A program made the translations under genes and the position numbers. Positions 1-22,507 of a stretch of 23,226 nucleotides of DNA are shown piece by piece. Numbering within the stretch: position 1 is the stretch's first letter; each line of letters opens with the position of its first letter. Source of the stretch: a virus; IMG/VR virus record IMGVR_UViG_3300032163_000453, positions 1-23,226 of that record; one strand, written 5' to 3'. The notes below the pieces were generated by a model. It did not search any database. It had not been told where the DNA came from and saw only the letters and a list, made by a program, of their open reading frames with translations.

Positions 1-830
1 TAAAACGGGAAGATAAGCAACTTTCCATTTCGGCTACAAAAATCAAGTTCGAGCGCTTTGTTTTTAACATCACAAAATGCAAGCCTTTACTCGATCATGT
101 GGCCAAATACCGTAAGAAATGGAACGAACAACAGGGAAGATTTGTCGATGAGCCTTTACATGATGTTAACTGTTTTGTTGCCGGGACACTTGTAGATACA
201 ATTTCTGGTGAAAAACCTATTGAAAATTTGAGAGTAGGTGATGCTGTAAAAACTCCGTTCGGATATCAAAAAATTACAAAAACATTTAAATATAAAACAA
301 AAAAGCTTGTCACGGTATCGTATGGAGGTAAAAGTATTACTTGCACACCACATCATAAGATATTCACAAATAAAGGTCTTGTTTCCGCCGATTCATTGAG
401 TTGTGATTTTCATATTATCACTAAAAAAAACGAGGATATATGGAAAAAATATACATACCCTAGAAAGGAGAAAAACTTAGGATTCAAGGATTATTTCTTA
501 TCAATGAATCAGAAACAATTATCTTTTTTGATGGAAGAAAATACAAGAAAAATAAATTCAATTATTGGCTCGGAAACTCTTGCACACTACAACGCTGCTG
601 CTCTAAGTCTTGCGGACAAATTCTCGGGCACAGAAATCGAAGTTTATGACATAGAAGTTGAACATGACCACTGCTACTTTGCCAACGGATTTCTGGTTAG
701 CAACTCAAATTATGCTGATTGCGTACGGTATGTTTCGTCCGCTGTCACATACTTAGAATCAATGGGAAGCCATTCCGGCGCTTTAGAACAACACAGAAAG
801 TTAACCGAGCAGCGTAGCCGGATGATATAA
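1..830 (+). CDS. Terminase large subunit, C-terminal part, 5'-truncated and interrupted by an intein
   Basis: The frame is open from the window edge (first full codon at 3), so the gene starts upstream; the GTG at 99 is an internal Val. Terminase large subunits pump DNA into the procapsid with an N-terminal ATPase, which is outside this window, and cut it with a C-terminal RNase H-like nuclease. Removing the intein (171-704) joins EPLHDVN to SNYADCVRY, which fits the HDxxSHxADAxRY-like motif of the TerL nuclease domain. A 41-residue C-extein ends at 828-830. The portal follows in the same frame, the usual packaging order. The TerL call rests on this motif, the position before the portal and the intein junction. 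The ATPase motifs cannot be checked here. Confidence 0.85.
   Translation, partial: KREDKQLSISATKIKFERFVFNITKCKPLLDHVAKYRKKWNEQQGRFVDEPLHDVNCFVAGTLVDTISGEKPIENLRVGDAVKTPFGYQKITKTFKYKTKKLVTVSYGGKSITCTPHHKIFTNKGLVSADSLSCDFHIITKKNEDIWKKYTYPRKEKNLGFKDYFLSMNQKQLSFLMEENTRKINSIIGSETLAHYNAAALSLADKFSGTEIEVYDIEVEHDHCYFANGFLVSNSNYADCVRYVSSAVTYLESMGSHSGALEQHRKLTEQRSRMI
171..704 (+). other. Intein (178 aa) without a recognisable homing endonuclease
   Basis: Block A starts with Cys1 (CFVAGTLVDT, then PIENLRVGD). Block B has the TxxH signature as TPHH at intein residues 59-62. Block F reads YDIEVEHDHCYF at 159-170, and block G is NGFLVSN, ending in Asn178 with Ser as the first C-extein residue. The penultimate residue is Ser rather than the common His, a substitution known in working inteins. 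Between blocks B and F lie about 85-90 residues with no LAGLIDADG or HNH motif that I can see. It could be a mini-intein with an enlarged linker or a decayed endonuclease. G+C is about 33% by hand count of 181-660, lower than the adjoining portal gene, consistent with acquisition. It must self-excise for the terminase to be active. Confidence 0.93.
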
Positions 831-893
831 TCTTTTTTGTTTAATCCTTTTTTGTCATCAGGTATACGGAAGAAAAACTTTGTAGGCCTATTT

Positions 894-3050
894 GTGTCCG
901 ATCAGGAAATAAGACAAGAGTTCGATGAAAATTATCGTTATTCTTCGGATTACTGGAAAGATTTCCAGAGAGATGCGCAAATCTTCACGCTTGCCGCTTC
1001 TGGCTATACGTGGAGCGATCAAGAACGTAAAATATTGGTCGCTTCTGGGAGAGATCCTCTAGAATTCAACATCATCAGACGGCCTCTTAATTTCTTTTCG
1101 GGCTATCTTCGTGACAACATCAAAAGCATTGTCTATTCCCCGGTAGAGGGAAGCGACCAAAAGACCGCCGATCAGCTCACAAAACTTTCGTATCATATCT
1201 GGGATAAGGGTTTCGGTTATTCGACATTTTTAGATGCTGCGGATGAAGGCTTTAAAAGCGGTATCGCCTTGTGCGGTATCCAGATGGACTATTCCCGTGA
1301 TTTTATAAACGGTGACATCTCTTTTTATAAGCGCACATATAACAGCTTTTATCTCGACCCGATGTTTGAAAGCATTGACCTCAAAGATTGTGCTTTCGGT
1401 ATTACCCGCGACTTAGTCGATAAAAACTATGCGAAACAGCTGTTGCCCTTTATCGATCCCGGTGACATTGATGATATTGTGGGCGGTGCTCAAGATAACA
1501 AGTTTCTTTCCTTCCATCCGCAGTTTCAAACCTATTCTCGGCGCAAGAATTTGATCGCTTACGATCAGTATTACCGACGCATCACAAAGAAGCGTAAATT
1601 TTTGGTCGATGTCGAATCGTCGTTTTATCGGGATATCACTGATTTACCGAAAGAAGAGCTCGACACATTAAAAATCGGCATTAGACGTTTGAGAAGAACA
1701 CGTGAAGAGTTTACGGCGCTTGATTACGATCTTTCAGAAGTGCCGAATGTCGAAATCATGGACATCGATCGCGACTTTGTAGAGCTCAATATTTTGCTCA
1801 ATGGGCAATGTCTCTACCAGGGAGACGATAAGACGGGCGTTAACAAAACGTTTCCGTTTGTGCCATTGATTTGCTACATGGAACCCTCGATATGGATGCC
1901 ATCACAGCGCTTGCAGGGTATTGCCGCATCGAATTGGAGCCTTCAGCGTCAGTTCAATAAGCGCCACATGAAAATCATTGATATGATGGACAGCACGATA
2001 TCAACGGGCTATAAGTATTTGATCGGCTCGGTGCCAAATCCTGAGGATTTACAGCAATCAGGTCAAAACCGCTTGATTGGCGTGAGTTCCGATCCTGTAA
2101 AAGCTCCGCTTGGTCTCGGTAGTGTTGAAGAGCTCCGCGGTGGTGGTGCAAATCCTGATTTGATGGCTTATCAGCAAATACTTGATCAGCTTTCGTTAAC
2201 CCTATCCAATGTCAATGAGAGCAGCTTAGGCGTTGATGAAGGCGGAAATACGCAGGTGTCCGGAAAGTTAGCAGAGACAAGAATCGCCCAAGGCCTTCGT
2301 GGTAATCGTAAGATTTTTGATAACGTCGAGACGTCTCAGCAGTTGTTGGGGGGTATTATTCTTCAAGCCATTCAAGAAAACTACAAGCCAGCAAAAGTGG
2401 AAAGAATCATTAACGAAGAGCCCACAGAGCAGTTTTACGACAAGAACTTTGAACAGTATGACTCGACGATTAAGGAAGGCGTGAAATCTAAATCTCAGCG
2501 CGACGCTTACTATTATGAGCTTGTCAATCTTAAGAAAGATGGCATTGTCGATGTTCCCGAAAGCGAAATCGTCCGTTCTCTTTCTATTGCAGGCCTTAGC
2601 GATCTTGAAGAAGCCATCGCACAGCAAGAAGAACAGAAAGCCGCACAGCAACAGAAAATCGATGCTCTTGAACAACAACAATTAGAGCTTGGAAATGCCC
2701 AAAAAGAACAAATGCTGGCACTCGCACAAGAGCGAAGAGCCCGAGTGGTTGCCGACATTTCGCTTGCAAGTGAGAGAGCTTCGGAAGCGGAAGAAAACAG
2801 AGCGCAAGCAGCGCTTGCTCGCGCGAAAACAATCACGGAAATTGGGAGCATGGAAAATGAAAAAATTCTTAGAGTGCTCGAATTCGTGAATCAGATGGAG
2901 CGTGATGAAGCGGAAGATCGGATGAATATCGACAAACAGATCCATGCGCAATCCGACGCAATCAACACGGAAACGCAAGGGTCGGCTGAAAACATACAAG
3001 CTACACAAGCACAACAGCAACCACAAGAAACGCAAGGAGAGATGTTATGA
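894..3050 (+). CDS. Portal protein (P22-like)
   Basis: Portal dodecamers form the DNA entry and exit channel at one capsid vertex and bind the terminase. The start is uncertain. The frame opens after the terminase stop, with TTG at 837 and 852 and GTG at 894, and no ATG before the conserved N-terminal region. I chose GTG 894, which has an AGG about 7 nt upstream and gives 718 aa, close to the 725 aa of P22 gp1. The N-terminal third (RDAQIF, then DPLEFNIIRRPLNFFSGYLRDN) resembles P22-type portals, where conserved residues precede the clip and stem. The last 150 residues are Gln/Glu/Ala-rich and strongly helical, like the P22 portal barrel. The next gene starts inside its stop (ATGA). Confidence 0.87.
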   Translation: MSDQEIRQEFDENYRYSSDYWKDFQRDAQIFTLAASGYTWSDQERKILVASGRDPLEFNIIRRPLNFFSGYLRDNIKSIVYSPVEGSDQKTADQLTKLSYHIWDKGFGYSTFLDAADEGFKSGIALCGIQMDYSRDFINGDISFYKRTYNSFYLDPMFESIDLKDCAFGITRDLVDKNYAKQLLPFIDPGDIDDIVGGAQDNKFLSFHPQFQTYSRRKNLIAYDQYYRRITKKRKFLVDVESSFYRDITDLPKEELDTLKIGIRRLRRTREEFTALDYDLSEVPNVEIMDIDRDFVELNILLNGQCLYQGDDKTGVNKTFPFVPLICYMEPSIWMPSQRLQGIAASNWSLQRQFNKRHMKIIDMMDSTISTGYKYLIGSVPNPEDLQQSGQNRLIGVSSDPVKAPLGLGSVEELRGGGANPDLMAYQQILDQLSLTLSNVNESSLGVDEGGNTQVSGKLAETRIAQGLRGNRKIFDNVETSQQLLGGIILQAIQENYKPAKVERIINEEPTEQFYDKNFEQYDSTIKEGVKSKSQRDAYYYELVNLKKDGIVDVPESEIVRSLSIAGLSDLEEAIAQQEEQKAAQQQKIDALEQQQLELGNAQKEQMLALAQERRARVVADISLASERASEAEENRAQAALARAKTITEIGSMENEKILRVLEFVNQMERDEAEDRMNIDKQIHAQSDAINTETQGSAENIQATQAQQQPQETQGEML

Positions 3051-14909: not shown

Positions 14910-15086
14910 TTATATCTTCCCTATATCTTCTTTGAGCTTTGCTAATTGAGCGTCAAAGGCTTTATTCATCAACTTTGACAAGCTCAAATGCGTGAGAACG
15001 GCCATGATCTTCATCGATTCATACGTCCTTCTCTGCATTCGAATTGTCGTCACTACAATTTCGTTTTTATCTCTGTTACTTTTCAT
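14910..15086 (-). CDS. Ribbon-helix-helix (Arc/MetJ-like) regulator
   Basis: The only complete gene on the - strand. The core VVTTIRMQRRTYESMKIMAV, then LSLSKLMNKAFDAQL, is a ribbon-helix-helix DNA-binding domain: an N-terminal strand that enters the major groove, helix A, a turn, then helix B. Such proteins, like P22 Arc and Mnt, repress as dimers. The ATG at 15086 gives 58 aa. The frame also opens at GTG 15131 (73 aa), and a start at GTG 15053 would give 48 aa and keep the strand. The start matters, because a consensus promoter overlaps the ATG (see 15085-15113). It ends 4 nt from the large gene, tail to tail, and lies upstream of the first fibre gene. Confidence 0.75.
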   Translation of the reverse strand: MKSNRDKNEIVVTTIRMQRRTYESMKIMAVLTHLSLSKLMNKAFDAQLAKLKEDIGKI

Positions 15087-15113
15087 TATATGATACTTTT
15101 TCCTTTTTGTCAA
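15085..15113 (-). promoter_or_regulatory. Consensus sigma70-type promoter on the - strand
   Basis: On the - strand, TTGACA (15113-15108) is followed after exactly 17 nt by TATAAT (15090-15085), a perfect match to the sigma70 consensus in both boxes and spacing. The expected start site near 15078 lies after the ATG at 15086, so if this promoter drives the regulator the ATG at 15086 cannot be used. Confidence 0.7.
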
Positions 15114-15145
15114 TGAATACGAATATATCACTTATTTTATTGACA
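15108..15145. promoter_or_regulatory. Inverted repeat TGTCAAT / ATTGACA, possible operator
   Basis: TGTCAAT (15108-15114) and ATTGACA (15139-15145) are perfect 7-bp inverted arms separated by 24 nt. The left arm contains the - strand -35 box. The right arm contains a TTGACA pointing toward the fibre gene, but I see no good -10 at 16-18 nt from it. It could be divergent -35 elements or a binding site for the regulator; both are inference. The surrounding 15132-15219 is AT-rich and holds no gene. Confidence 0.35.
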
Positions 15146-15219: not shown

Positions 15220-17358
15220 ATGCCAAAATTCCCTAATCCATCCGGTTATGCAGGAAGAAAATCAAATCAACACCTTAGCGGTCAATCACGATTTGCTACA
15301 GCCGCTGAATCAGCCGACGGCACAGCAACTGATCTTGTTATTTCACCTGCAACACTGTCTTCAGCAGGGGATCTTTTGATTCCTGATGCAACGACAGTTA
15401 TTAAAGGCAAGGCGCGTTTTGCTACACCAACGGAAGCCGCAGCTGGTATAGCAACGGATATTTTTGTTAATCCGGCAGCTCTTGCCGCGTTGGTTCTTGC
15501 TGGCTCGGTAAACTGGTCGGAAACGGTTTCCGGTATCGGGCAGCTTGCTACTCAGGCCGAAACGAATACAGGGACGGATGACAATACAGCGATTACTCCG
15601 CTTAAGCTTAAGACTAATTTGACGACACCTCCGGCCATTGGAGGATCAACACCGGCAGCCGGATCGTTTACAACGCTTACAGCGTCTTCCACTGTCACTT
15701 TCACTGGTGGAGTGCTAAATCTTGGCACCGATAACGCTGCTAATGCTCTTAATATCGGTTTGGGAACAGTCGCAAGAGCTATTCATGTCGGTGATTCGGC
15801 AGCTGCTCACGTCATTACGATTGGCTCAACAACTGGTGCTGCATCAATCACAGAACTCGTTGGAACGGGTAATTACTCGCTTGATGGAGCCGCAACATCC
15901 ACTTACGCATGGGGAGCTTCCACAACCACAGGAACATTTACTTTCGGTGGAACCGCACAGACGGGGACTATCACTCTAGGAAGTTCTTCTGGCACAAATA
16001 TTGTGGCTATCGGAGCCGGAACGGGCGCGACCACAGTGAATATCGCTGGTGGTGCTACTTCAGCCAAGGCTGTAAATATCGCCACGGGAGCCGTTGCCAA
16101 CGTGGTTATTATTGGTAGTGTTACCGGCGCAGCATCGCTTGCGCTTAAAGCTGGTACAGGCAACTTCTCCTTAGATGGGGCTGCAACGACAGGTTATAGT
16201 ATTGCTCCGAGTGTCACTTCGGGAACAATTGTTATCGGCGGAACAGCTGGAACAGGAGCGATGACTTTCGGAAGTTCTTCAGGCACTCAGATTGTTAATC
16301 TGGGTACGGGTGAAGGGGCAGCTACCGTAAACGTGGCGACGGGCGCAACATCCGCTAAAGCAGTCAATATCGGAACAGGCGCCGTTGCTAACGTGTTGAT
16401 TCTAGGCTCTACTACTGGCGCCGCTTCTATGGCTCTTAAGGTGGGTACTGGTCACTTCGTGTTGACTACGGCAGCTACTTCAAACATCACAATAGGTGCA
16501 GCTCAAACCACAGGCACAACCACGATTGGTGGCACAGCGCAGACAGGAACGATTACTCTTGGCTCCTCAAGCGGAACAAACATTCTTGCTTTGGGTGTCG
16601 GAGAAGGTGCAACCACGGTTAACATTGCAACAGGAGCGACAAATGCCAAAGCGGTCAATATCGGAACGGGTGCGATTGCTAACGTTCTTACATTGGGTAG
16701 CGTTACTGGTGTTTCTTCTATCTCGTTGCTCGTAGGTACAGGTAATTTCTCATTAGATGGTAACGCCGCTTCTGTATATGCGTTGGGAGCTTCCACGACT
16801 ACAGGAACAGTGACGATCGGCGGCACAGCACAGACCGGCACAATGACACTCGGTTCTTCAAGTGGAACGAACATTGTGGCTATCGGTGCTGGTGAAGGCG
16901 CTACTACTGTGAATATCGCTGGTGGTGCTACAGCAGCTAAGGCTGTGAATATTGCCACGGGAGCAGTCGCTAACGTCACAACAATCGGAACAGCGACGGG
17001 AGCAGCAGGGATCAACTTGATTGGGGGTTCGGCGCTTGTGAAGGTGTCCAGCTCTCACTTCCAGATTGCGACCACAGGTAAAGGGTTGCAGATGAAAGGT
17101 GGCGTCGTAACTGATATGTGCGGAACGGGCGTATTGACAGCCGGAACGCAGACGATTGCCAACACTAACATTGCAACGGGTGATTTGATCTTGATTTCAA
17201 GGATCGGTGCGGCCGCTTCGACGACGCTCGGCGTGCTAAGTTACACGATCAGTAATGGTGCGAGTTTCACCGTAACCTCCTTAATCTTAGGGACACCCGG
17301 TTCAACTCAGACGGGCGACGTGTCAACATATTCCTATATGATTGTCAGACCTGTTTAA
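15220..17358 (+). CDS. Fibre-type protein with 97-aa tandem beta repeats
   Basis: 712 aa, GAGGA before ATG 15220. Three N-terminal motifs of the phage fibre type (FATAAESADGTATDLVISP, then FATPTEAAAG, then QLATQAETNTGTDD) lead into IGGSTPAAGSFTTLTA, another frequent fibre motif. Residues about 249-600 hold tandem 97-residue repeats anchored by GSSSG at residues 254, 351, 448 and 545, plus a looser copy before them. The C-terminal domain (about 628-712: GTGVLTAGTQTIANTNIATG, then LSYTISNGASFTVTS) resembles beta-sandwich caps on phage fibres. Such proteins trimerise into long beta rods that touch the host surface. No chaperone domain or DGR variable repeat is seen. It may form a tail fibre or head-bound fibre. 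Confidence 0.75.
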   Translation: MPKFPNPSGYAGRKSNQHLSGQSRFATAAESADGTATDLVISPATLSSAGDLLIPDATTVIKGKARFATPTEAAAGIATDIFVNPAALAALVLAGSVNWSETVSGIGQLATQAETNTGTDDNTAITPLKLKTNLTTPPAIGGSTPAAGSFTTLTASSTVTFTGGVLNLGTDNAANALNIGLGTVARAIHVGDSAAAHVITIGSTTGAASITELVGTGNYSLDGAATSTYAWGASTTTGTFTFGGTAQTGTITLGSSSGTNIVAIGAGTGATTVNIAGGATSAKAVNIATGAVANVVIIGSVTGAASLALKAGTGNFSLDGAATTGYSIAPSVTSGTIVIGGTAGTGAMTFGSSSGTQIVNLGTGEGAATVNVATGATSAKAVNIGTGAVANVLILGSTTGAASMALKVGTGHFVLTTAATSNITIGAAQTTGTTTIGGTAQTGTITLGSSSGTNILALGVGEGATTVNIATGATNAKAVNIGTGAIANVLTLGSVTGVSSISLLVGTGNFSLDGNAASVYALGASTTTGTVTIGGTAQTGTMTLGSSSGTNIVAIGAGEGATTVNIAGGATAAKAVNIATGAVANVTTIGTATGAAGINLIGGSALVKVSSSHFQIATTGKGLQMKGGVVTDMCGTGVLTAGTQTIANTNIATGDLILISRIGAAASTTLGVLSYTISNGASFTVTSLILGTPGSTQTGDVSTYSYMIVRPV
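15964..17010 (+). repeat. Tandem 291-bp repeats within the fibre gene
   Basis: The GSSSG codons recur at 15979, 16270, 16561 and 16852, exactly 291 bp (97 codons) apart each time, with no indels between units. Copies differ mostly at synonymous positions, so the protein repeat is conserved while the DNA has drifted. The last copy degenerates into the C-terminal domain after about 17010, and a diverged partial copy lies before 15964. Confidence 0.85.
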
Positions 17359-18757: not shown

Positions 18758-21700
18758 GTGTCCCAAGCAGGAACAATCGACATCGAGAAGGCCAATCCAA
18801 CGATTGCCACTTCTTACACCTCTGACAGCGGGACGGCTGTTCCGATTCTCAATAATTTAGAGATTCTTGGCGGCCTAGGCAATACCACTTCAGCCTCGGG
18901 AAAAACACTCACGATTGATTCAGTACTGACCCTTTCAGGTAATTCTGGTGGAGCGATCAACTTTTCCAGTGATAACTGGAATGTTGTTGGCGATGGCAGT
19001 GTCACCACTTCTGGGCTAGGCAGTACATTAACAGTCAAGCTCCAAGGTCTTGATCAGTTTTCTTTACTTGTAGGCGCCAACACAACTACGATTGGCAAGA
19101 TTGCCGCCATTCCCCAATCAGGCATTCCTTTGGTGTCTAAAGGCAATGGAGCTAACCCGGCCTATGATATAGCTCAGGTTATTGGCGGCGGCACAGGATT
19201 AGCCACATTGCTCGCCAATTCTCTATACGTAGGCAATGCCGCTTCTCCACCTACAGCTGTGGGTGTTGGTGCTAATGGAACGCTTTTGCAAGGTTCGGGA
19301 GCCATTCCTGCATGGACAACGGCGACCTATCCAGCAACCACCACGATCAATCAGATTCTTTATAGCTCGGCAGCCAACACAGTCACAGGTCTTGCCACGG
19401 CAAATAGTGCCGTGTTAGTGACAGGAGCAACAGGAATTCCTTCTCTCCTAGGATCGATGACGGATGGCCAATTTCTTATCGGATCGACAGGGGCTATTCC
19501 TGTTTTGGCAGCGCTTACGCAAGGCGCTGGCGTCACCATCACTAATGGAGCCGGAAGTGTTACTATTTCGGCAACAGGTGTCACATGGAATACAGTAACT
19601 GCTGCCAGTCAGACGATGGCAGTTGGTAATGGTTATATTTCTAATCGAGCCGGTCTTATTACGTATTTATTGCCAGCAACAGCGATTGTTGGGGATGTTT
19701 TAGCTGTTACAGGTATCAACACAGCAGCCGGTTGGATCATTACTCAGAATGCCAATCAGCAAATATTTTTCGGTACGGGTCAAACAACACTAGGTGCCAC
19801 TGGAAGTTTATCCAGCACGAATATTCGAGATACCGTTTATCTTGAATGTGTGGTTGCTGGTGCAAGCACGGTTTGGAACGTCACTGATGGGGTAGGTAAT
19901 ATTGCCATTGATGGAACAACAACGACCATTAATGTATGCAATCTGGCAACAGGAGCACTTGGTACGACTCTTATCGGTCAAGGAGCTTCAGTAACTCCTG
20001 TATTTTCGGCGACATTATTGTTGTCAAGCTCAAGTTTAGCGCCTTTAAATCTTGTTAGCACTGATGCAGGAGCGACAGCCGGTCCGATCATCGACATCTA
20101 TCGCAATTCGGCTAGTCCCGCAGCATCGGACATTATCGGCCAGCTTACATTTTCAGGCGCATCTTCAACGGCTGTTAAGCGCACTTATGCGAGCATTCAA
20201 GCAAACATTACCGATCCTGTAAATGCTACAGAAGATGCGACGATTACAAGCACAGTGATGATTGCAGGAACAGGAACGATTGTAAGCACTTTGACAGGGA
20301 CAGGCTTTAACTCAACGGCAATTGGAGCAACAACACCGTCTACCGGATCGTTTACAACAATCAATAATAATACAAGCGCTGGAAGCGCTTTAACAGCGGC
20401 TACCGTAACAACACCAAGCGCTACAATAACCGGTGGTACGATTGATAATACTATTATTGGTGGATCAACAGCCGTTGCAGGAACATTCACGGCGGTCACA
20501 TTAGTCTCCGCAGCAGCATTGACATCTCTTACTATGAGTACGACAGATGGGGGCGCCACTGCCGGTCCGATCATCGACATCTATCGCAATTCGGCTAGTC
20601 CCGCAGCATCGGACATTATCGGCCAGCTTACATTTTCAGGTGCTTCCTCGACAGCGGTTAAGCGCGTGTATGCCAGCATTCAGGCAAATATAACTGATCC
20701 GGTCAATGCCACTGAGGATGCAACGATTACAAGCTCTGTGATGGTGGCAGGAACGCCGACAGTAGTCAGCACGTTGACAGGCACGGGCATTAATTCTACA
20801 GCGATTGGAGCGACAACCGTTTCAACAGGCGCTTTCTCGACGGTATCCGCAACAGGCGTAATCACTTCTACATTAGCGACTGGAACAGCGCCTTTTACAA
20901 TTGCTTCAACAACAAATGTTGCGAATTTGAATGCTTCTTCTTTGGGAGGTGCGACCTTTGCAGCGCCGGGGGCAATCGGCGGAGGAACGCCGGGAGCCGC
21001 TACGTTTACGACTCTTACAGCCGTTGGCACGACAAACATCAATGCAACTGGTGCAGCAACGACGAGTATCGGCACAGGCGGCACAGGTGTTGTCAACATC
21101 GGAAACGCAACAGGCAATACAGCCGTTACAGGAACACTCACGGCATCGGCAAATATCACCGCTTCAACGGGTGGTGTTACAGCTACGGCTGGTGATGTGA
21201 CAGTCACATCCGGCAATCTTGTATTAAGTGCTGGTACGGCGACGATCACAGGCGGTGCAACGCTTACCACTATTACTACAAGCACAACGGATGGTGGAGC
21301 GACAGCAGGACCGATCTTTGATGCGTATCGTAATTCAGCAAGTCCAGCGGCGGCAGACATTCTCGCTCAGAAACTTTATTCGGGTAATTCATCGACGGGT
21401 GTAAAGCGAAATTACGCTTCGATCGAAGGCAACATCGTTACAGCAACTAACGCCTCGGAAGATGGATCGATCACTTTCGGGACAATGAGTGCCGGAACAC
21501 TTGCGACACGTGCAACTATTGATAAAACATCTGTACGATATGGCAATAATTCCCTTGGATATGATCTTAATCTGGCCATATCTTACGCTTCAAATACGTT
21601 GACCATTCAGGGAAGATCGGCTGCATTATCAGCAACGAATCCGGCATGTATTTGGATACAGGATAACTCAACACCCGGACTTGGAAAACTTTATACAGTC

Positions 21701-22507
21701 ACTGCTAATCAAACATTTATCGATTCTACGGGCGCTTCTCAAATCATTGGAAATTTACTAGGCATGACCACAGGAGTCGCTGTTACGGCTGATATCCCCA
21801 TATACGTGTATGCGTGTACTGATGGAACATCGATTACATTTGGACTTTCAAGGGTTCCTCACATGGCGGTTGCTCCTGTTGTGGCAAATATTGGATCAAG
21901 TGCTTCTGCTACTGCTGATACACAAGGATCATTATTTCTTTTAGCAAACGTAACAAGAGCAAACTATGCAGGGCTTCCAGTGTTGCTTGTCGGATCATTT
22001 AGAATGCGTATGAATACCTCAGATGATTGGGCTGTACAAGCTTTAAGTACAAGTGATGGTGTTGGTCAATTTCAAGAAGGGGTTATATTTACTACACCGT
22101 CTGGACAGTTTGGAGCTAATTCCGGAACTTATTGCCTTCCAAATGGTGGAACGGCACCGGTATGGACGACTAATAATTCTGGCTATCATATTAATCGTAG
22201 TGGACGTGTGCATCTAGAAATGTATATGAATGGAGATGGTGGAACAGATGGATCAGGTGCAGTTAATTCAACGGTAGCCATCCCATTTATAGCATCAAAT
22301 GATACGGCTACTGGTGGTACGACATTGGGATATGGTTTACAAATTCAAGCCGCTGGAACTCAAACATTTTCATATTTAAATATATCTCCTAATGCAAATA
22401 CAGTGGCTTTGGGATTAGCGGGTGTAGTAACTACATGGGGTGCATATACAAATGGAAATAGAAGAGCATGGTTTCAAATGGATTATGTAGCAAGTTTAAG
22501 TGTTTAA
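18758..22507 (+). CDS. Giant fibre-type protein, 1249 aa, modular beta repeats
   Basis: Starts at GTG 18758 with TAGGAG 6 nt upstream. Domain order: a repetitive Gly/Thr/Ser N-terminus (about 1-275) with VIGGGTGLATLL and several NG-LLQGSG type repeats; a Trp-containing beta domain near 276-382 (WNTVTAASQTMAV, then GWIITQNANQQIFFG); then three copies of a YRNSASPAA module starting near residues 441, 602 and 850, linked by AIGATTPSTGSFTTI-type motifs; and a unique C-terminal region of about 320 residues, likely the receptor or trimer tip. Between copies two and three lies GTTNINATGAATTSIG, common in phage fibres. A second long fibre next to the 712-aa one suggests two attachment organelles or one composite fibre. 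Confidence 0.75.
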   Translation: MSQAGTIDIEKANPTIATSYTSDSGTAVPILNNLEILGGLGNTTSASGKTLTIDSVLTLSGNSGGAINFSSDNWNVVGDGSVTTSGLGSTLTVKLQGLDQFSLLVGANTTTIGKIAAIPQSGIPLVSKGNGANPAYDIAQVIGGGTGLATLLANSLYVGNAASPPTAVGVGANGTLLQGSGAIPAWTTATYPATTTINQILYSSAANTVTGLATANSAVLVTGATGIPSLLGSMTDGQFLIGSTGAIPVLAALTQGAGVTITNGAGSVTISATGVTWNTVTAASQTMAVGNGYISNRAGLITYLLPATAIVGDVLAVTGINTAAGWIITQNANQQIFFGTGQTTLGATGSLSSTNIRDTVYLECVVAGASTVWNVTDGVGNIAIDGTTTTINVCNLATGALGTTLIGQGASVTPVFSATLLLSSSSLAPLNLVSTDAGATAGPIIDIYRNSASPAASDIIGQLTFSGASSTAVKRTYASIQANITDPVNATEDATITSTVMIAGTGTIVSTLTGTGFNSTAIGATTPSTGSFTTINNNTSAGSALTAATVTTPSATITGGTIDNTIIGGSTAVAGTFTAVTLVSAAALTSLTMSTTDGGATAGPIIDIYRNSASPAASDIIGQLTFSGASSTAVKRVYASIQANITDPVNATEDATITSSVMVAGTPTVVSTLTGTGINSTAIGATTVSTGAFSTVSATGVITSTLATGTAPFTIASTTNVANLNASSLGGATFAAPGAIGGGTPGAATFTTLTAVGTTNINATGAATTSIGTGGTGVVNIGNATGNTAVTGTLTASANITASTGGVTATAGDVTVTSGNLVLSAGTATITGGATLTTITTSTTDGGATAGPIFDAYRNSASPAAADILAQKLYSGNSSTGVKRNYASIEGNIVTATNASEDGSITFGTMSAGTLATRATIDKTSVRYGNNSLGYDLNLAISYASNTLTIQGRSAALSATNPACIWIQDNSTPGLGKLYTVTANQTFIDSTGASQIIGNLLGMTTGVAVTADIPIYVYACTDGTSITFGLSRVPHMAVAPVVANIGSSASATADTQGSLFLLANVTRANYAGLPVLLVGSFRMRMNTSDDWAVQALSTSDGVGQFQEGVIFTTPSGQFGANSGTYCLPNGGTAPVWTTNNSGYHINRSGRVHLEMYMNGDGGTDGSGAVNSTVAIPFIASNDTATGGTTLGYGLQIQAAGTQTFSYLNISPNANTVALGLAGVVTTWGAYTNGNRRAWFQMDYVASLSV
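20078..20157 (+). repeat. 80-bp perfect direct repeat, copy 1
   Basis: Identical over 80 bp to 20561-20640. It encodes the GPIIDIYRNSASPAASDII core of the first module. Both flanks are diverged between copies, mostly at synonymous sites. Confidence 0.9.
20561..20640 (+). repeat. 80-bp perfect direct repeat, copy 2
   Basis: Second copy, 483 bp (161 codons) after the first, in the same frame. A third, clearly diverged copy starts near 21304 (encoding GPIFDAYRNSASPAAADIL). Exchange between the perfect copies would delete or add 161 codons in frame. Confidence 0.9.

Follow-up and report, generated by a model that had tools for sequence, protein, structure and literature searches.

In most descriptions, an intein consists of two domains fused in a single reading frame. 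Phage terminase large subunits (TerL) are known hosts: the inteins of mycobacteriophage TerLs are all in the ATPase domain, those tested splice, two cut the intein-free TerL, and the available passages report no overlapping-frame endonuclease (PMC5050341). A homing cycle that includes endonuclease loss has also been described (PMC3229294). The closest published case to the arrangement reported here is the ShiLan domain, which, like the Pacc40 gp60 insertion, is an out-of-frame HNH insertion in an actinobacteriophage DNA methylase; its authors found neither intein blocks nor an intein fold there and concluded that it is not an intein (PMC11855218). For overlapping frames, that paper cites a preprint by Gosselin et al. 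2025 on actinobacteriophage inteins of 'non-canonical architecture' and Gorbalenya 1998, 'Non-canonical inteins', and inteins with overlapping endonuclease ORFs may already have been described in those works. Literature text searches found no other report beyond the ShiLan-type case and the works cited in PMC11855218.

The DNA analysed here (the window) was a 23,226-base IMG/VR virus record, IMGVR_UViG_3300032163_000453, consisting of a single metagenomic contig. An open frame at 3-830 (+ strand, 275 aa) lacks its 5' end, which the contig start cuts off, and is followed by a P22-like portal gene (837-3050, + strand; Pfam P22_portal, E 3e-53), which identifies the locus, and by an N4-gp56-type major capsid gene (E 8e-41); the presence of these two genes after TerL indicates the structural region of a tailed phage. 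Comparison of the window ORF with viral contigs found zero relatives, and the portal was therefore taken as the anchor. This yielded 80 loci, in most of which TerL lies directly 5' of the portal gene. With positions 171-704 removed from the reading, the flanks joined as an N-extein of 56 aa from the C-terminal nuclease part of TerL (3-170, + strand) and a C-extein running from Ser+1 (SNYADCVRY...) to the TerL stop (705-830, + strand). The joined flanks align gap-free at the junction to intein-free TerLs beside the same portal gene (best 64% identity over 94 aa, locus L031), which bears out the proposal of the initial annotation that the interrupted host is a terminase. The related TerLs hit the terminase large subunit family phrog_2 (E 2e-24), and a profile built from them matches T4 gp17 (E 2e-7); homology to the ATPase and RNase H-like nuclease domains is present in these portal-adjacent relatives, and the window holds the C-terminal part only.

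The insertion site, HD-x-x^SNxAD (HDVN^SNYAD in the window), is the last conserved acidic motif of the TerL C-terminal domain, with an acidic Asp codon at 717-719 in the C-extein. From the motif and established knowledge of TerL, we take the site-motif Asp to be a catalytic nuclease residue. Alignment with uninterrupted relatives agreed with the earlier reading that a single nuclease motif is divided here, and the site differs from those of the mycobacteriophage TerL inteins, which are confined to the ATPase domain of the same protein (PMC5050341).

The insert (171-704, + strand) is 178 aa long, begins with Cys, contains CTPHHKIF, ends in DIEVEHDHCYFANGFLVSN and is followed by Ser; its G+C content is 0.34, against 0.41 in the flanks. 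The residues of a class 1 intein are present on the + strand as Cys1 (codon TGT, 171-173), T59-P-H-H62 of block B (TPHH, 345-356), Asn178 (702-704) and Ser+1 (705-707), all invariant or nearly so in relatives, T59 and H62 being invariant in 33 of them. Blocks F and G (EVYDIEVEHDHCYFANGFLVSN, 639-704, + strand, ending LVSN) are recognised by the NCBIfam intein_Cterm model (E 7e-7), and the insert also matches Pfam Intein_splicing (E 3e-9, 37.2 bits against a cut-off of 35.8) and Hint_2 (E 1e-7). The penultimate residue of block G is Ser177, an unusual choice that most relatives share; a His at this position is common in inteins and is not essential. AlphaFold modelling gave a Hint fold with mean pLDDT 86, and Foldseek ranked an intein-like PDB domain (2lwy) and the gp41-1 intein highest, at E 1e-9 to 1e-8. 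By sequence gp41-1 is the nearest solved structure, and by fold it is one of the nearest; it is split into two genes, as is NrdJ-1, whereas the window intein is one uninterrupted frame. Contiguous intein-free homologues exist at this conserved site, and the intein is absent from 49 of 58 long TerLs in the portal-linked set. The segment could instead be imagined as an RNA intron or an ordinary domain insertion, since its middle has no domain match in the TerL frame; the complete set of splice-junction residues, the intein models, the Hint fold, the uninterrupted relatives and a frame that is open throughout leave this reading with a negligible probability, and it was rejected. The assignment of 171-704 as an intein in TerL was thus confirmed at the level of sequence and predicted fold. 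A class-1-type mini-intein of this kind would excise from TerL by protein splicing, with Cys1 and Ser+1 as nucleophiles and cyclisation of Asn178, and the nuclease motif would be restored only after splicing.

Taken alone, the window copy is an ordinary mini-intein, and the interest lies in the content of the second frame. Exactly the same site is occupied by an intein of 326-348 aa in six of the portal-linked loci, five of them distinct. The window intein is 44-51% identical to these, and their middle is missing from it. Read in the intein frame, the middle of the full-length relatives has no domain match; read in offset +2, it encodes a protein of 223-243 aa, located between intein blocks B and F, that has CxxC zinc-finger-like motifs and a core matching Pfam HNH_3 at E 1e-15 to 1e-18 and whose best PHROG match is an HNH endonuclease family (E down to 8e-36). 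The set was widened by searches with HNH and intein alignments and by tblastn of phage records, and HNH_3 cores in offset +2 were found in the full-length relatives at E 1e-12 to 1e-18. Among 39 representatives less than 80% identical to one another, 33 had an HNH match (32 full-length and one remnant), always in offset +2, and no HNH was seen in frame in any member of this intein family. Besides the window site, insertions occur within its motif at a point three residues further downstream (HD.xSHA^[S/C]DA.RY), and at a few other positions. In a Pfam check of ten divergent members, HNH_3 was detected in nine (E 1e-12 to 1e-17); a helicase intein (L144), in which Pfam detected no HNH, was placed outside the family. 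A scan of genome contigs with the HNH alignment gave no matches, and with the intein alignment it gave one MAG contig, which also bears the out-of-frame HNH arrangement. In the structural model of one full-length member (L044) the Hint fold is confident, the first 80 and last 40 residues being mostly at pLDDT 92-97, and the stretch overlapped by the HNH gene is mostly at pLDDT 31-59.

The hidden gene belongs to the same protein family as the phrog_15471 phage HNH endonucleases, which are free-standing and are often encoded next to TerL, lying beside it in several phages, whereas the hidden gene lies inside an intein. Free-standing genes of the same family were observed between or beside TerL and portal in five loci (L155, L156, L157, L158 and L160), and such genes are a possible source of the intein-hidden one. 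As in ShiLan and Pacc40, an HNH gene is hidden out of frame in an insertion through which the host frame stays open; here, however, the interrupted gene is TerL and a complete intein is read in its frame, so that the relatives do not belong with ShiLan-type insertions, which have no splicing domains.

The window retains the remains of this second gene. A Shine-Dalgarno sequence (GAGG, 432-435) and an ATG (440-442), both on the + strand, survive at the position homologous to that in L038, in keeping with the Shine-Dalgarno enrichment of the family. From there, offset +2 relative to the intein (440-649, + strand) reads MEKIYIP, a stop, then KGEKLRIQGLFLINESETIIFFDGRKYKKNKFNYWLGN joined to SCTLQRCCSKSCGQILGHRNRSL and a final stop, which is the start of the HNH protein fused to its end: codons 1-46 (440-577) adjoin the last 23 codons (578-646) and a TGA (647-649), and codon 8 is a TAG (461-463). 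The HNH core and most of the zinc-finger motifs are deleted. The remnant nevertheless scores 85 bits against the HNH profile, compared with a maximum of 44 in 2000 shuffles that preserved the intein frame. The residues of the window spacer are thus the out-of-frame reading of what remains of an HNH gene, and by this evidence the window intein is a deletion derivative of a longer HNH-bearing intein. The short architecture remarked on in the initial annotation is real, at 178 aa; its cause, the decay of an intein with an out-of-frame endonuclease, had been overlooked. Four other mini-inteins (L100, L104, L106 and L117) bear similar fossils, that of L106 being weak, and the mini-inteins are scattered over a poorly resolved intein tree in which the starred branches require at least three changes. 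Scattered mini-inteins with fossils are consistent with the endonuclease having been lost several times over, in the manner of the published homing cycle (PMC3229294).

Constraint on the two frames was assessed in the 33 representatives with an HNH match, which had been collected by searches that imposed no requirement for an open intein frame across the HNH gene. Synonymous codon shuffling of the HNH frame predicted 106 stops in the intein frame and none was observed; the sum of log10 P was -73, a value that is descriptive, as the representatives are related by descent. In the same test, stops in the third frame occurred as expected, and 1-12 stops interrupt the equivalent frame of six HNH relatives that are free-standing genes in other phages. 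These counts ruled out the possibility that the intein frame is open by chance. In 549 of 549 pairs the HNH-frame proteins were more alike than the intein-frame ones, and divergence was greatest at the third position of HNH codons (0.62, against 0.47 and 0.45). This pattern shows protein-level selection on the HNH frame; the intein frame is held open over the HNH gene and is otherwise little constrained.

These results also bear on whether the out-of-frame position is a sequencing or assembly frameshift artefact in an ordinary HNH intein. Inteins are usually described with an in-frame endonuclease and metagenome contigs may contain indels, but divergent contigs, dozens in number, and complete phage genomes from GenBank all have the identical offset, purifying selection acts on the HNH frame, the intein frame is free of stops and in-frame members were not seen. 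An artefact was rejected as extremely improbable. The GenBank genomes include Tetrasphaera phage TJE1, Acinetobacter phage Highwayman and Rhodobacteraceae phage LS06-2018-MD07, in each of which the +2 HNH lies within a terminase-annotated CDS with zero internal stops; in the GenBank TerLs examined, the endonuclease is not annotated as a separate feature.

Entry into the HNH frame was examined at the start codons. Within the same inteins, Shine-Dalgarno-like matches were stronger before HNH starts (mean best match 3.15) than before the remaining start-like codons (1.94; resampling P 5e-5), and in several members no Shine-Dalgarno was recognisable. The HNH stop is usually a TGA formed by the VYD codons of block F (TAT GAY), as in the window, and otherwise lies a few codons later. 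Alternatively, ribosomes translating TerL might shift by -1 and so make the HNH protein of the full-length relatives as part of a TerL-intein-HNH fusion, which would leave the remaining explanation unchanged. Offset +2 corresponds to a -1 shift, and a slippery-type heptamer lies near the HNH entry in 14 of 32 members; however, the heptamers vary in position, the other 18 have none, the five closest members have a +2-frame stop just ahead of the start codon, the Shine-Dalgarno matches are enriched at HNH starts, and a second intein family uses offset +1. No conserved -1 slippery site was found among the 32 members. Frameshifting is accordingly considered unlikely, and internal initiation appears favoured because of the Shine-Dalgarno enrichment and the inconsistent heptamers.

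The second family consists of TerL Walker A inteins that are overlapped by a NUMOD4-HNH gene in offset +1 and whose host frame is open over its whole length (L131, on the same contig as L163, and L166, L167 and L168). In L131 the intein lies at 895-1821 and the HNH frame at 1076-1708. Another TerL (L140) has a second intein, before DELAAW, at 1291-2166, with an HNH_3 frame in offset +2 at 1500-2108. Since the +1 family differs from the +2 family in offset, in the type of endonuclease and in its insertion site, the out-of-frame arrangement seems to have arisen independently at least twice. Among L131, L163, L166, L167 and L168, some TerLs additionally hold an intein of the +2 family further on. 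Walker A inteins of a different, ordinary kind (ARQLGM^C...HN^ST), at another site of this TerL family, were also observed in TerLs beside the portal in L036, L043 and L061; those of L036 and L043 have an in-frame LAGLIDADG-like stretch (MSGMLDGEGSL). The TerL ORF of L112/L113 (about 1200 aa) is interrupted twice: an intein in the ATPase part has in-frame LAGLIDADG-like motifs, and another in the nuclease motif has a +2 HNH gene.

The window copy was very probably derived from a composite element, with the Hint domain in the TerL frame and an internally initiated HNH gene for homing in offset +2, that decayed to a mini-intein by in-frame deletion. The ancestor would have been a mobile element whose intein frame encoded the Hint domain only and whose +2 frame carried, between blocks B and F, an HNH homing endonuclease gene in complete form. 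Translation of TerL in intact relatives would run straight across the overlap, and the resulting spacer, which has no confidently predicted fold, would be removed with the intein. Translation of the HNH protein would most likely begin at a start codon of its own inside the intein, served by a Shine-Dalgarno sequence, and the protein would insert copies of the element into unoccupied TerL genes. The endonuclease of the window copy would have been lost through an internal deletion of about 145-155 codons, in frame, and the TAG, leaving a splicing-only remnant. The initial annotation had suggested that splicing could act as a timing or condition switch for packaging. A domesticated mini-intein of this sort, kept without its endonuclease because conditional splicing times DNA packaging, would draw on the interruption of a motif required for nuclease activity and on the proposal that inteins in general are environmental sensors (PMC5050341). 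The features of the window intein give no sign of conditionality, endonuclease loss in scattered members is what the homing-cycle model predicts (PMC3229294), most related TerLs manage without an intein, and the full-length relatives resemble homing parasites; the switch is thus unsupported, and we regard it as very unlikely.

It is fairly probable that these inteins represent a widespread and largely unrecognised phage class in which the splicing element and the homing endonuclease are overlapping genes in a fixed register, which is +2 in the one family and +1 in the other, independent family, the host frame serves as a long, disposable, stop-free spacer, and mini-inteins keep readable fossils in the second frame. 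A mobility gene that overlaps the splicing gene out of frame would decouple endonuclease expression from the host protein, and its placement hides the endonuclease from annotation. The overlap also suggests a route by which endonucleases could invade mini-inteins or lead to split inteins. It provides a natural test of dual coding, with one frame under protein-level selection and the other mainly selected to stay open, and cultured phages such as Tetrasphaera phage TJE1 make the site and the HNH proteins testable.

Elsewhere in the window, two long repetitive ORFs were observed at 18758-22507 and 15220-17358, with, for example, repeated STAVKR.YASIQANITDPVNATEDATIT and repeated GTAQTGTITLGSSSGTNI modules; neither has a Pfam match, and they are possibly tail fibre or appendage proteins. 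The sole convincing small ORF on the minus strand (14910-15131, 73 aa) has no Pfam match, and by eye its product looks like a ribbon-helix-helix type regulator. A tandem array of a hexamer and an 18-mer (GCCTGA, AGCCTGAGCCTGAGCCAT) occupies the extreme end of the contig at 23118-23224 and is the likely reason for the assembly break.
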